A stretch of 64,000 nt of DNA, from positions 310,001-374,000 of the forward strand of contig NZ_MUXN01000027.1 in NCBI RefSeq assembly GCF_001995215.1, written 5' to 3'. This DNA is from Amycolatopsis azurea DSM 43854 (GTDB lineage Bacteria > Actinomycetota > Actinomycetes > Mycobacteriales > Pseudonocardiaceae). A program made the translations under genes and the position numbers. Positions 25,765 through 30,706 of this stretch are shown here, piece after piece (the first letter of the stretch is position 1; each line of letters begins with the position of its first letter). The notes beneath the pieces were generated by a model. The model did no database searches. It was given only the letters and a program-made list of their open reading frames with translations, and was not told where the DNA came from.

Positions 25765-25840
25765 CGAGCCGCACCTCCACCGCCGTCACCGACCGTACTT
25801 ACGCTCGGTAACAACGGTAGCCCGAAAAGGCGCAGCGCGA

Positions 25841-25868
25841 CAGTCCCGCGAACCCGATCGCGGGACTG
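25841..25868 (-). terminator. Hairpin downstream of the StyA-like gene
   Basis: CAGTCCCGCG (25841-25850) and CGCGGGACTG (25859-25868) form a perfect 10-bp stem with an eight-base loop, 15 bases past the stop of the monooxygenase gene and upstream of ku. There is no clear T tract in the direction of transcription. Confidence 0.6.
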
Positions 25869-25882
25869 CCGCGGTTCCCGAA

Positions 25883-27109
25883 TCAGGCCTCGGCCAGGTA
25901 CTTCTCCGCCTTGGCTGGATCGAAGAACCAGTGCTGGAAGTCGGTCGGATCGGAGAAACCGTTCGCGAACCGCGTCGCCACGGCGGGCTTCTCCCCCGCC
26001 GCGCCGATGATCTGGAGCACGTGCGGGGGCGGCGGCTGCAGCATCGCGTTGGTCCAGGTCGTCACGTGCTGGGCGTACTCCCAGTACTTGTCGAACGCCC
26101 CGGTCATCCACGCCTCGTCGAAGGGCTTGTCCCCGTGTTCGAGGATCGAGTCCAGATAGGACGCCGCGCAGTGGCTCGCGTTGTTGGAGCCCTGGCCGGT
26201 GATCGGATCGTTGGCCACGACGACGTCGGCCATGCCGAGCACCGCGGTCCCGGACGGCAGCTTGCCGACCGCGCTCCGCACGACCGGGGTGTACCCGCCG
26301 GCCAGCGTCGCCTTCTCGTCGGTCAGCACGGCGTTCCTCGAACGGTCGTACTCCCACGGGAGGAACTGCTTCATCAGCGACAGGATCCGGTCGAGATGCT
26401 GCTGCGGCGAAGGCCGGTCACCCCAGCAGTCGAGCGGGCCACCGGGGATGCCCTCGAAGAAGAGGATGTCGCAGTTCCCGCTCAGCGTGTACGCGGGGAT
26501 CATGAACAGCTCGCCGACGCCGGGGATGATGTTGAAGCGCACCGCGGCCTTGTCCGAATGCTCGGGCCGGGGCTCGAGGCCGTGCACGTAGGCCAGCGAA
26601 AGCGCGCGCTGGGGCTCGGTGTACGGCGAGCGTTCCGGGATCCGGTCGAACAGCTGGACCAGCTCACCCTTGCCCGCCGCGACGACGACGAGGTCGTAGA
26701 GCTTCGCCAGCGGCGCGAGATCCGAGGTGGTGACGCCGTGGATGACGACCTTGCCGCCGCGGTCCTCCACCAGCTCCAGCCAGGCCGCCATCTTCACCCG
26801 CTGGTCCACCGACTGCGCGTAGTGCTCCAGCGGCGCGAACCAGTCCAGCACGCGGCTGGAGTCCGGTCCCGCGATGGACACGCCGAGTCCTTCGACCCGG
26901 ACGGTCTCTTCCTCCCACAGGTTCAGCTTGTGGTCCCGCTCGTGCTGCAGGGCGGAGTGGAACATGCACTGGGTCGACATCACCTTGCCGGACCGGATCT
27001 CGTCCGGCGTCCGCGCCGACATCACCGTGACGTCGTAGTCGTGGTCCAGCAGGCTCAAGGCGAGTTGCAACCCCGACTGCCCGGCACCGACGATCAGAAC
27101 CTTGCGCAT
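25883..27109 (-). CDS. StyA-type FAD-dependent monooxygenase (styrene/indole monooxygenase family)
   Basis: 408 residues, the size of StyA. The start at 27109 is preferred because GGGAGG lies 10 bases upstream; the ATG at 27118 touches the ribosome site. The FAD site is VLIVGAGQSGLQLALSL, and the family regions MSARTPDEIRSGKVMSTQ and NDPITGQGSNNASHCAASY are present. Two-component members epoxidise alkenes or oxidise indole and need a separate flavin reductase (StyB), which is absent here. The gene is 24 bases after the conservon GTPase in the same direction, the position that a cytochrome P450 gene takes in some Streptomyces conservons. Confidence 0.85.
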   Translation of the reverse strand: MRKVLIVGAGQSGLQLALSLLDHDYDVTVMSARTPDEIRSGKVMSTQCMFHSALQHERDHKLNLWEEETVRVEGLGVSIAGPDSSRVLDWFAPLEHYAQSVDQRVKMAAWLELVEDRGGKVVIHGVTTSDLAPLAKLYDLVVVAAGKGELVQLFDRIPERSPYTEPQRALSLAYVHGLEPRPEHSDKAAVRFNIIPGVGELFMIPAYTLSGNCDILFFEGIPGGPLDCWGDRPSPQQHLDRILSLMKQFLPWEYDRSRNAVLTDEKATLAGGYTPVVRSAVGKLPSGTAVLGMADVVVANDPITGQGSNNASHCAASYLDSILEHGDKPFDEAWMTGAFDKYWEYAQHVTTWTNAMLQPPPPHVLQIIGAAGEKPAVATRFANGFSDPTDFQHWFFDPAKAEKYLAEA

Positions 27110-27133
27110 GCTCGACATTCCTCCCGGAACTGG

Positions 27134-27748
27134 TCAGCTGAGGGCGAATTCGCGGCCGGGCCCGGAGACCACCGCGAGGGACAACGTGTGGGACACCAGT
27201 TCCTGCAGCGTCTCGACCGCCGATTTCGGGTCGCGGGCGTCACAGGTGACCAGCGGGATGTCCGGGGACAGCGCCAGCGCGTCGCGCACCTCTTCGAGGT
27301 CGTGCACCGGCATCCCCTCGAACTGGTTGACCGCGACGATGAACGGCAGCTCGGAGTCGTTCTCGAAGTAGTTGATCGCGGCGAACGACTGGTCGATCCG
27401 GCTGGTGTCGACCAGCACGACAGCGCCGAGCGCGCCGCGCGAGAGGTCGTCCCAGAGGAACCAGAACCGGGCCTGCCCGGGCGTGCCGAACAGGTACAGG
27501 AGCAGGTCTTCGCGCAGGGTGATGCGGCCGAAGTCCATCGCGACCGTGGTGGTGGATTTGGTCCCCGGCGGCACGAGCTCGTCGACCCCGGCACCCGCCT
27601 CGGTCATCCAGGCCTCGTTGCTCAGGGGCGGGACCTCGGAGACGGAGCCGACGAACGTCGTCTTGCCAACGCCGAATCCACCGGCGACCACGATCTTGGC
27701 GGAGATGGCGAGAAGATCGGCGTCAGACCGGGAGGCGCTTGAGTCCAT
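27134..27748 (-). CDS. cvnD: Conservon GTPase (CvnD-type)
   Basis: 204 residues with the P-loop GGFGVGKTT (23-31), a switch II region LFGTPGQARFWF and VNQFEG in place of the standard NKxD. This matches the Ras/Arf-like GTPases encoded in Streptomyces conservons, which sit at the membrane with the kinase-like and Roadblock partners in a eukaryote-like G-protein complex. The ATG at 27748 lies inside the 3' end of the DUF742 gene (26-base overlap), which is typical of this operon. Confidence 0.92.
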   Translation of the reverse strand: MDSSASRSDADLLAISAKIVVAGGFGVGKTTFVGSVSEVPPLSNEAWMTEAGAGVDELVPPGTKSTTTVAMDFGRITLREDLLLYLFGTPGQARFWFLWDDLSRGALGAVVLVDTSRIDQSFAAINYFENDSELPFIVAVNQFEGMPVHDLEEVRDALALSPDIPLVTCDARDPKSAVETLQELVSHTLSLAVVSGPGREFALS

Positions 27749-28106
27749 CGAGGATCCTCTCGAGCACATTCGTATCGTGGTTGTAAGCGTGGGCCGTCGG
27801 ATGCACGAAGACGGCACCCTGGGTGGCGAGGTCGCCGATGAGCACGCGGACCACGCCCAAAGGCAGGTCCAGTCCCACCGAAAGCTCGGCGATCGACGAG
27901 CGTTCGCGGGCGCGCTCGTACAGCGAGCGCGATTCGGGCATCAGCGCCTCGGCCAGCGATGGGTCGTAGCGCGGAACCGAGATCAGGGTCTCCACCAGGA
28001 GCAGCTGGCTGCTCTTGGTGCGGCCGCCGGTCAGCGCGTACGGCCGGATTCTGCGGCTGCGCATCTTGACCGGCCGGTCCGGAGCTTGATCGCTGGACAC
28101 GGTCAT
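27723..28106 (-). CDS. cvnC: DUF742 protein (CvnC-type)
   Basis: 127 residues of the DUF742 family: RRIRPYALTGGRTKSSQLLLVETLISV, then a winged-helix-like part (SSIAELSVGLDLPLGVVRVLIGDLATQGAVFVH) and a short C-terminal helix. In conservons it accompanies the Roadblock and GTPase proteins. It lies 19 bases after the Roadblock gene and overlaps the GTPase gene. Confidence 0.93.
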   Translation of the reverse strand: MTVSSDQAPDRPVKMRSRRIRPYALTGGRTKSSQLLLVETLISVPRYDPSLAEALMPESRSLYERARERSSIAELSVGLDLPLGVVRVLIGDLATQGAVFVHPTAHAYNHDTNVLERILDGLKRLPV

Positions 28107-28125
28107 CCCTTCCTTCTCCGGATTC

Positions 28126-28560
28126 TCAGGCCTGCGGCCGTCGGGCGGTCAGGACCTGCCGGAGTCCCGCTCGCACCTCGGGGGTGAGGGCGTGACCGGC
28201 GTTGGTGATGAACTGGGTCATCTCGTAGGCGACGACCTTCATGTCGCAGTCCGGCTCGGTGAGCACCGCGAGCCCGGCCTCGGCGCCGATCCCCATGAAC
28301 AGGAAGTACCCGCGGGTGAGCCGGATGATGATCTGCTCGCAGTTGCCCTTGCCGAACAGCGCGGCGCTGTTGCCCGCGAGGCTGAGCAGGCCGCTCGCGA
28401 TGGCGGCGAGCTGCTCGGCGTCGTCACTGGACACCGATTCCGAAGCAGTCAAAGGGAAACCGTCGACGGACATGATCAGCGCGTGACTGGCACCGTGCAC
28501 CTTGCGCACGAAGTCGTCGAGCAGCCACGTGAAATCCGTGGTCGCGTCCTGGGCGGTCAC
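28126..28560 (-). CDS. cvnB: Roadblock/LC7-domain protein (CvnB-type)
   Basis: 144 residues. A single Roadblock/LC7 fold covers most of the protein (FTWLLDDFVRKVHGASHALI, VSSDDAEQLAAIASGLLSLA, IIRLTRGYFLFMGIGAEAGL). These proteins act as regulators or GTPase-activating partners of the conservon GTPase. The start overlaps the kinase gene stop by four bases (ATGA). Confidence 0.94.
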   Translation of the reverse strand: MTAQDATTDFTWLLDDFVRKVHGASHALIMSVDGFPLTASESVSSDDAEQLAAIASGLLSLAGNSAALFGKGNCEQIIIRLTRGYFLFMGIGAEAGLAVLTEPDCDMKVVAYEMTQFITNAGHALTPEVRAGLRQVLTARRPQA

Positions 28561-29786
28561 TGGGTGTTTCCTCCGGTCTCACGCTCGTGCCGGTCATCGA
28601 GGGCGGCACGCTCGCCGTCGCTGAAGGCGTCGAGGTCGGCCAGCAGCGCCTCGTGCCCGTCCGCCGCGTCGGCGGGCGGGATGGTCGGCGGGGCCGGTTC
28701 GTCGGGCAAAGTCCTGATACTGCGGGAAACCCGGCGCGGGAGGCCGCTCGCCGTGGTGCCGCCGTCGGCGGGCGGCTGGAAGGCCGTGCGCGGACGCGGG
28801 CTGGGCTTGCGTTCCGGTTCCGGCGCGGGTTCCGTCGTGGCCGGGCGGCGCCTGGGCAGCCCGGACGGCGTCGCGACGGGGTTTCCCACGGGCGCTCCGT
28901 TGGTGATCCTGGTCTGCGGCAGCACCACGGTCTGCGAACCGGACCACTGCTTCTCGGCCAGTTCCGAGACCACCGGGACCGGCAGCAGCACGGTGGCGAC
29001 CGTGCCGTGCGGGGTACGGCGGTCGAGTTTGACGGTGATCTCGTGCCGGTCGGCGAGCCTGCCGACGACGGCGAGTCCCATGTGCCGCACCGAATCGTCG
29101 TCGAGCACCGGACCGGCGGCCAGGCGCTCGTTCAGTGCCGCGAGGCGATCCGGCGGCATGCCGATGCCCTCGTCCTCGATGCGGATCAGCACGCTCCCCT
29201 GTTCGGTGAGATGCGCGCTGACACTGACCGGGGAACTCGGCGACGACTGGTTCGCCGCGTTGTCGAACAGTTCCGCGAGGATCCGGCTGACGTCCTCGGC
29301 GGCGAAACCGACGACGCCGAGCGAAACGACACGGCCGATCGTGATCCGCGAGTAGTGGTCGATCGACGACATCGCGGCCCGCATCACGTCGAGCACGGAC
29401 GAGATCCCGGCGGTCGTGTCGTCGGCGTCCCGGCCGGCGAGCACGCGCAGGTTCTCGGCGTTGCGCCGCAAGCGGGTCGCCAGGTGGTCGAGCCGGTAGA
29501 GCTCGGCGAGACGGTCGGAGTTGTCCTCCCCCGCCTCCATCGTCTCCAGCTGCGCGAGCAGCTGGTCGAGCAGGTTGAGGTCGCGCAGCGCGACATTGGA
29601 ACAGACGCCGGCGAGCGCGCCCGCGTCCGGCGCTTCCACGGCAGGCCGCTGTTCCACCACCGGTTCGGCGGGCGGAGCCGACGGAGCGTGCCGGGGCGGG
29701 GCGGCGAGGAACTGCGCCGCGGCGACCCTGGAACGGTCCAGAAGAACCCGTGAGCGGTCAAGCAAGCCTCGAGCCCGCGTCACCAT
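28557..29786 (-). CDS. cvnA: Sensor-like histidine kinase of the conservon (CvnA-type)
   Basis: 409 residues from the ATG preceding VTRARGLLDRSRV. There is no obvious sensor or transmembrane domain. A helical part (RLDHLATRLRRNAENLRVLAG) resembles nitrate-sensor-type kinases, followed by a HATPase_c domain with the N box (LAELFDNAANQS), G1 box (DEGIGMP) and GLAVV. The last ~140 residues are a Pro/Arg-rich disordered tail. Conservon kinases of Streptomyces control development and secondary metabolism with CvnB-D. Here the N-terminal extracytoplasmic part of many CvnA proteins is missing, leaving a soluble form. Confidence 0.88.
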   Translation of the reverse strand: MVTRARGLLDRSRVLLDRSRVAAAQFLAAPPRHAPSAPPAEPVVEQRPAVEAPDAGALAGVCSNVALRDLNLLDQLLAQLETMEAGEDNSDRLAELYRLDHLATRLRRNAENLRVLAGRDADDTTAGISSVLDVMRAAMSSIDHYSRITIGRVVSLGVVGFAAEDVSRILAELFDNAANQSSPSSPVSVSAHLTEQGSVLIRIEDEGIGMPPDRLAALNERLAAGPVLDDDSVRHMGLAVVGRLADRHEITVKLDRRTPHGTVATVLLPVPVVSELAEKQWSGSQTVVLPQTRITNGAPVGNPVATPSGLPRRRPATTEPAPEPERKPSPRPRTAFQPPADGGTTASGLPRRVSRSIRTLPDEPAPPTIPPADAADGHEALLADLDAFSDGERAALDDRHERETGGNTQ

Positions 29787-30022
29787 GTGCTTCCACTTCT
29801 TTCTCTTCGCATACCCGGACCCGTGTCGCACTCCCCAGCACAACGACGGCCATGCAAGCAGAAGTAACTATCCGTGTCCACAGCCGGTTTCTGTTCAACA
29901 GCTGGCTGTGACGTGGACACGAAAGCGTTACGGCAGGTGAGCGGTGTGCACTAGGCCATTCGGCTCATCTTGAGTGTCCTGCACCACGGGGGATGTCCGA
30001 AAAGTGCGGAGTGCGCATAAAT

Positions 30023-30037
30023 TTGCGTGCCCCGCAA
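30023..30037. promoter_or_regulatory. Putative TetR operator
   Basis: TTGCG-TGCCC-CGCAA, a perfect 15-bp dyad centred 29 bases upstream of the TetR gene's GTG, in an AT-richer stretch (GCATAAATTTGCG) suited to a promoter. Position and symmetry fit autoregulation by the TetR protein and control of the ABC exporter behind it. Confidence 0.55.
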
Positions 30038-30058
30038 CTTTTGCCTATCCTCTCGGTC

Positions 30059-30706
30059 GTGCCACCCGACTCCACCGCCCCTCTCGGACTGCGCGAACGC
30101 AAGAAACGCGCGGCCCGTCGAGCCATGAGCGAGGCAGCGCTCAAACTCGCCGCCGAGAAGGGCGTCGAACAGGTCCGCGTCGAGGACATCGCCAACGCCG
30201 TCGGCGTCTCCCCTCGCACGTTCAACAACTACTTCTCCAGCAAGGAGGAGGCGATCTGCTCGTTCATCGTCGAACGGCAGGAACGGGTGCTGGAGGCGCT
30301 GCGCGAACGGCCGCCCGAAGAGCCGCTGTGGGAAGCGGTCAGCGCGGCGACGCTGGAGACCTACGGCCGTGACGGCGAGCCGAACCGCGACACGGTGCAG
30401 GTCGCGCGATCGATGATCCTGCACCCGTCGGTGCACGGCGAGTTCCTCAAGGCGCACGCCACCGTCGAGCGGGTACTGGCCGAGGGAATCCTGGAGCGGG
30501 CGGGCGCCGGTGCGGAAAACGCGTTGAACGCGAGACTGATGGCGGCCATCGTGGAGTCTGCGGTGAAGACGGCGTTCTTCAACTGGCTGATGCACGAGGG
30601 TGCCGAGCCCTTCCTGGAAACCGTCGAGGCCCTCCTGCGCGAGGCCTCGCAGGGCATCCCGTCGCTCACCCGACCCGAACCGGTGAAAAAACCGAAGAAG
30701 CAGTAA
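30059..30706 (+). CDS. TetR-family regulator of the ABC exporter
   Basis: 215 residues from the GTG at 30059; earlier starts would translate through the operator. The N-terminal helix-turn-helix is EDIANAVGVSPRTFNNYFSSKEEAI, typical of TetR, and the rest is an all-helical ligand domain with a Lys-rich end. A 31-base gap separates it from the two ABC exporter genes on the same strand, which it most likely represses until an exported compound binds. Confidence 0.92.
   Translation: MPPDSTAPLGLRERKKRAARRAMSEAALKLAAEKGVEQVRVEDIANAVGVSPRTFNNYFSSKEEAICSFIVERQERVLEALRERPPEEPLWEAVSAATLETYGRDGEPNRDTVQVARSMILHPSVHGEFLKAHATVERVLAEGILERAGAGAENALNARLMAAIVESAVKTAFFNWLMHEGAEPFLETVEALLREASQGIPSLTRPEPVKKPKKQ

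Follow-up and report, generated by a model that had tools for sequence, protein, structure and literature searches.

A StyA-like flavin monooxygenase as a putative third accessory class of actinobacterial conservons

Could an oxygenase other than a cytochrome P450 serve as the accessory gene of a conservon? In a stretch of 64,000 nucleotides from Amycolatopsis azurea DSM 43854 (assembly GCF_001995215.1, contig NZ_MUXN01000027.1, positions 310,001 to 374,000 of the forward strand; hereafter the window), four conservon genes, encoding a histidine kinase, a Roadblock protein, a DUF742 protein and a GTPase, are directly followed by the gene of a StyA-like flavin monooxygenase (MO, used for both gene and protein). 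The pairing of MO and conservon is old and widespread in actinobacteria, and is conserved over several families. Based on comparative sequence analysis, the MO appears to be a third class of conservon accessory beside the P450 and GAF types, while the core itself looks like an ordinary conservon. Conservon signalling is probably connected with the oxidation of a small molecule, and our preferred but tentative explanation is that the MO is the output partner of the GTPase. In Streptomyces coelicolor, GAF proteins are found in conservons 7-8 and P450 proteins in conservons 9-12 (PMC8510531; this and the other papers cited by PMC number are used for their accessible parts).

Spread and history of the pairing

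The sequence-only reading of the window had proposed a search for conservon-StyA pairs across actinobacteria, and the linkage proved not to be restricted to the strain. In the genus of the window, 60 of 80 genomes carry both the MO ortholog, accepted at an identity of at least 75%, and the Roadblock ortholog. All 61 MO copies have the orthologous Roadblock gene at a distance of 965-1282 bp. The remaining 20 genomes contain neither ortholog, except for an MO fragment of 70% identity in one of them (G010). Since every copy is adjacent and presence and absence are matched, the adjacency of the two genes is not due to chance.

On a broader scale, 100 regions around MO relatives were taken from samples of the genus, family, order and class, and were picked for spread rather than at random. 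An MO that adjoins conservon genes is termed linked here. Complete arrays were identified in 57 of these regions and partial ones in four (L056, L073, L111 and L121), and the other 39 contain none. Among the relatives at least 60% identical to the window MO, 51 of 52 are linked (49 complete, 2 partial; the exception is L063), and below 60% identity linkage is found for 10 of 48 (8 complete, 2 partial). With a Streptomyces MO as query, the best 80 of more than 585 named relatives are all linked, 77 of them in five-gene arrays and three clipped by contig ends; 79 are titled Streptomyces and one is titled “Actinobacteria bacterium OV320”, and S. coelicolor is absent among these best 80. Of 121 Streptomyces genomes sampled, 112 have an MO ortholog (E values up to 1e-150). 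An identification of the Streptomyces conservon of this type with cvn5, suggested by how far it lies from a tandem conservon pair, was rejected because its Roadblock protein is only distantly similar to the cvnB5 chain in PDB.

The junction between the GTPase and MO genes is tight. In 7 of 18 loci inspected, belonging to some of the families, the two reading frames overlap by 8 nt at the GTPase stop and the MO start. With this overlap in relatives and a gap of 24 nt here, there is almost no room for a private MO promoter between the genes, although a site inside the GTPase gene could still provide one. Among the 57 complete loci, tandem MO pairs occur in L039, L041, L042, L044, L046, L047, L049 and L071, and an MO triple occurs in L135.

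Some further configurations were observed around these genes. In two genomes of group g3, an extra CvnD-like gene lies in pieces beside the MO (L055:3353-3943 and L059:7053-7493), which is perhaps a decaying duplicate. The genome G893, which carries the MO-conservon L112, has a second and more divergent one on contig C34 (L152, at about 115 kb). The genome of the window itself encodes a second StyA-like oxygenase, 44% identical and not beside a conservon (L079, contig C21:268218-269432), and on its contig C1, at about 337-341 kb, a second Roadblock-DUF742 pair lies within 1 kb behind a conservon (L001/L003).

The MO tree comprises 129 rows, with 18 near-identical genus loci (L010-L027) omitted, and was obtained by a quick method that gave long-branch warnings. 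In this tree, one clade of 100 rows (Shimodaira-Hasegawa-like approximate likelihood ratio test, SH-aLRT, 96) contains all 84 linked rows together with 16 unlinked ones. The remaining 26 genome rows are all unlinked, and PDB 9lrq and 7z4x, the relatives of known structure, also fall outside the clade. The linkage label takes 8 changes on the tree. In the tree of the Roadblock, DUF742 and GTPase proteins, from which the L001/L003 duplicate and 18 other near-copies were dropped and in which L055 is labelled “other”, the complete MO-conservons share a single clade with support 87/98, which comprises 54 rows; within it L161 is truly unlinked, and L055 has its MO behind the extra GTPase-like gene. 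Streptomyces is sister to the other MO-conservons there, and L111 and L121 are placed separately. In the tree of the GTPases only, where one GTPase is counted twice through the overlap of L001 and L003 and the labels mean no more than MO or not MO, the MO-linked GTPases form three groups. The simplest history would be that one conservon type recruited the oxygenase once and that losses followed.

From the window alone, the MO had seemed to be an unrelated oxygenase in the place of the P450 (cvnE). In the three-protein tree, the MO-conservons are nearer to the NIT-type conservons, and the conservons identified as followed by a P450 (L158 and L168, according to Pfam) are found in a different part, far from the MO clade. 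Replacement as the simple account was rejected on this ground, and the oxygenase therefore seems to have joined the conservon independently. Other oxygenase-like genes were also seen behind conservons. In the Streptomyces genome G881, another conservon is followed after 71 nt by a FAD_binding_3 flavoprotein gene (L163:266-1390), and in G893 yet another is followed after 138 nt by an MPAB/Lcp-type oxygenase-like gene (L169:2221-3174); oxygenases may recur at the fifth conservon position.

The array in the window and its oxygenase

The genes listed in Table 1 are transcribed on the minus strand in the order kinase, Roadblock, DUF742, GTPase and MO. The kinase and Roadblock genes overlap by 4 nt and the DUF742 and GTPase genes by 26 nt, with a gap of 19 nt between Roadblock and DUF742, and both the coordinates and the Pfam domains agree with the standard order with overlaps that had been read from the sequence. 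The spacing of 24 bases given there between GTPase and MO is correct for ATG 27109 (MRKV..), which has GGAGG ten bases upstream and agrees with the starts of relatives. The other candidate, ATG 27118 (411 aa), would leave 15 nt and is too near the GGAGG.

Table 1. Features of the five-gene array, with positions in the window
Feature	Position	Strand	Support
CvnA-like histidine kinase, 409 aa	28557-29786	-	HATPase_c 5.5e-15 (Pfam)
CvnB-like Roadblock/LC7 protein, 144 aa	28126-28560	-	Robl_LC7 1.6e-18 (Pfam)
CvnC-like DUF742 protein, 127 aa	27723-28106	-	DUF742 4e-27 (Pfam)
CvnD-like Ras-type GTPase, 204 aa	27134-27748	-	ATP_bind_1 1.1e-30 (Pfam, longer frame)
Group E (StyA/indole-monooxygenase-like) MO, 408 aa	25883-27109	-	Smoa_sbd 1.3e-44 (Pfam)
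Hairpin, 16-bp stem	25815-25882	-	-48.7 kcal/mol, directly 3' of the MO stop

The C-terminal extension of the kinase contains GLPRR twice, which corresponds to an LPxR-type motif as described for conservon kinases (PMC4316618). The P-loop of the GTPase reads GGFGVGKTT. The Roadblock protein has relatives in PDB (9hef, Rv3364c; 3leq, cvnB5), and no PDB relative was found for the GTPase at E 0.001.

For the fifth gene, Pfam reports Smoa_sbd and FAD/NAD-binding families (FAD, flavin adenine dinucleotide), and neither p450 nor GAF. Its closest PDB relatives are 9lrq (5.8e-142) and 7z4x (4.2e-139), the latter of which we take to be VpIndA1 of Variovorax, and the homology extends over the full length. 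The entry 9lrq is named “Alanine-phosphoribitol ligase”, which looks like a misannotation of a StyA-family flavoprotein sequence. Styrene monooxygenases show the fingerprint N46-V48-H50-Y73-H76-S96, and indole monooxygenases show S46-Q48-M50-V/I73-I76-A96 (PMC13101512). At these positions the window MO has S, Q, M, V, L and A, where the column of A96 depends on the choice of alignment; that is, five of the six residues of the indole type, with Leu in place of I76, and no residue of the styrene type. The description of the gene as StyA-type holds insofar as it is StyA-like and has the Smoa_sbd domain, but it is not StyA proper, since with the StyA equivalog NCBIfam NF045732 it reaches 230.9 bits, below the cut-off of 550, and its fingerprint is mostly of the indole type.

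These features are conserved among the linked MOs. The three glycines of GxGxxG, the Q and first N of DPITGQGSNN, and the D and R of SVDQR are kept in all 84 linked rows, in which the indole fingerprint is represented by S in 82, Q in 84, M in 75, V/I in 75 and A in 72. Position 76, which is Ile in indole monooxygenases, is Leu in 56 rows and Gln in 14. Because the FAD-binding residues and most of the pocket fingerprint are kept, the MO is probably a working group E oxygenase with a pocket of its own rather than a degenerate relic; on the same grounds, a decayed sensor was considered and is not favoured.

The hairpin behind the MO (z = -5.1 for 25815-25890; none of 200 shuffles reaches an equally low energy) is probably the end of the transcription unit, ahead of a Ku gene on its 3' side, so that the unit looks like five genes plus a terminator. 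A divergent gene upstream of the array (29993-30703), separated by about 200 bp from the start of the kinase gene, encodes a TetR-type regulator (Pfam) with an MftR-type C-terminal domain. The absence of an adjacent StyB reductase gene, noted from the sequence, is borne out by Pfam: no flavin reductase (PF01613) lies beside the array, and of the 7 such genes in the genome even the nearest is separated from it by about 75 kb. StyB need not adjoin the oxygenase in all group E systems.

Candidate roles of the oxygenase

The explanation that we prefer, at somewhat less than an even chance, is that the active MO is the output partner of the GTPase, by which small-molecule oxidation would be placed under the control of the switch. 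The kinase, the Roadblock protein (similar to a GTPase-activating protein) and the DUF742 protein (similar to a guanine nucleotide exchange factor) would set the nucleotide state of the GTPase, guanosine triphosphate (GTP) or diphosphate (GDP), and one of the two forms would bind or gate the MO. As its output, the switch would have a small aromatic compound oxidised, which may be indole-like, with reduced FAD (FADH2) supplied by a reductase encoded elsewhere. The input would arrive through a NIT receptor in the membrane in Streptomyces, and as a cytosolic signal in systems with a soluble kinase like that of the window. MfpA, the fifth-gene partner of GTP-bound MfpB in mycobacteria, would be the analogous case. 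The conserved five-gene order, the agreement of the MO and conservon clades, the retained catalytic residues and the MfpA/MfpB precedent all support this explanation.

The main rival is that the MO acts on the input side, as a cytosolic sensor or modulator of a soluble kinase, much as CvnF8 does for CvnA8. Its FAD/substrate pocket would respond to oxygen, to an aromatic ligand or to the redox state of the flavin, and the MO would set the activity of the kinase. The published accessory proteins CvnE (P450) and CvnF (GAF) accompany kinases without a sensory domain, and CvnF8 is a binding partner of CvnA8 and stimulates it (PMC13343842). The kinase of the window is likewise soluble, and its orthologs have no transmembrane (TM)-like window; outside Streptomyces, such windows are missing from the kinases of all 50 linked loci, and a scan of 6 of these kinases for NIT domains gave none. 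However, the same array in Streptomyces has a kinase that is a NIT/HAMP receptor in 4 of 4 scanned, with at least two TM-like windows in 6 of 7 and, in a second set of loci, 71 of 77 (4 of the 77 have no TM-like window, at least one of them being a cut frame).

The orphan GTPases also bear on this question. In a family of CvnD-like GTPases (L251-L280, group f31), CvnA-C are absent within 1.5 kb in all 30 loci inspected, and a StyA-like MO directly follows the orphan GTPase in 6 of the 30, for example in L111:4528-6500 and L121:4389-7621. Therefore, a second line of GTPases also has the MO as a partner, and there without an adjacent kinase gene, which does not suit a modulator of the kinase; nor does its preserved active site. 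Partial correlations of MO distances over 56 complete loci are 0.44 for CvnC, 0.30 for CvnD, -0.07 for CvnA and -0.31 for CvnB. Because of the orphan-GTPase pairing, the 8-nt overlap, the correlations with CvnC and CvnD, and the NIT sensor that the Streptomyces kinase has of its own, we prefer an output role and rank the input role second, as possible but rather unlikely.

Several observations weigh against the MO being an output of the GTPase. The partial correlations range widely on subsampling (from -0.03 to 0.50 for CvnD), and that for CvnB is negative. No MO is present in 24 of the 30 orphan GTPase loci, and the MO clade includes 16 unlinked rows among its 100; consequently, the MO can exist without either partner. 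Moreover, the 50 sensor-less kinases outside Streptomyces would suit an input role equally well.

It is also conceivable, although we consider it unlikely, that the MO makes or destroys the molecule that is sensed or sent, without contacting the other proteins, and that co-transcription constitutes a feedback loop. The conserved active site is in line with this, as is the fact that group E relatives act on indole, styrene and aryl sulfides (PMC6017014, PMC13101512), and the diverged tandem copies of the MO would suit substrate diversification. On its own, however, such a role does not account for why the MO gene is strictly adjacent to that of the GTPase, why stop and start overlap, or why the MO also pairs with an orphan GTPase. 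Least probable of all, and in our view quite improbable, is a catabolic or detoxifying enzyme that rides in the operon and is functionally separate from the switch. The 39 of 100 fetched relatives that lie away from any conservon would fit such a passenger, but the adjacency over several families, the co-occurrence in the genus and the stop/start overlap argue against it, and degradation genes are absent beside the window array, whose neighbours are the Ku gene and the TetR-type regulator. The full form of the output proposal, namely a third and old conservon class, near-universal in Streptomyces, whose Ras-like GTPase would directly gate an oxygenase that depends on FADH2 and that can also pair with an independent orphan GTPase lineage lacking adjacent genes for a kinase, a GTPase-activating protein or an exchange factor, is more speculative, and we regard it as possible but rather unlikely.

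Comparison with known systems

The pairing of MO and conservon is undescribed in the literature searched, a scope that mostly leaves aside subscription papers, including the original conservon papers. In its accessible main text, PMC13343842 names only P450 and GAF accessory types, and flavin, oxygenase and styrene do not appear. The inputs and outputs of conservons are mostly obscure, and the MO is a concrete candidate partner with a predicted chemistry in most Streptomyces genomes. If the output role is true, a bacterial small GTPase would switch small-molecule oxidation. In addition, a large clade annotated as “styrene monooxygenase” would obtain a likely physiological home, probably unrelated to styrene.

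Compared with the cvnE and cvnF conservons (cvn7-cvn12 of S. coelicolor), the window array has the same four-gene core with a downstream fifth gene, and its kinase is likewise sensor-less; however, the fifth gene encodes an unrelated flavoprotein, and its place in the tree is apart from the P450-conservons. The MO-conservons also contradict the generalisation, as given in the accessible part of PMC13343842, that accessory genes are of the P450 or GAF type and go with sensor-less kinases, since the MO-bearing kinase of Streptomyces has a NIT sensor. The mfp conservon of mycobacteria consists of MfpE-D-C-B and MfpA, and MfpA works with GTP-bound MfpB (PMC4316618, PMC13015309). As in the window, its fifth gene directly follows the GTPase gene, but MfpA is a pentapeptide-repeat DNA mimic and not an enzyme, and the MO is a putative counterpart. 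With the group E enzymes 7z4x, 9lrq and StyA (3ihm), the MO shares full-length homology, the FAD motifs and most of the indole fingerprint. It differs from 7z4x and 9lrq in that both are outside the conservon-linked clade and most linked MOs have Leu or Gln instead of Ile at one pocket position, and from StyA systems in that no StyB gene adjoins the MO of the window.

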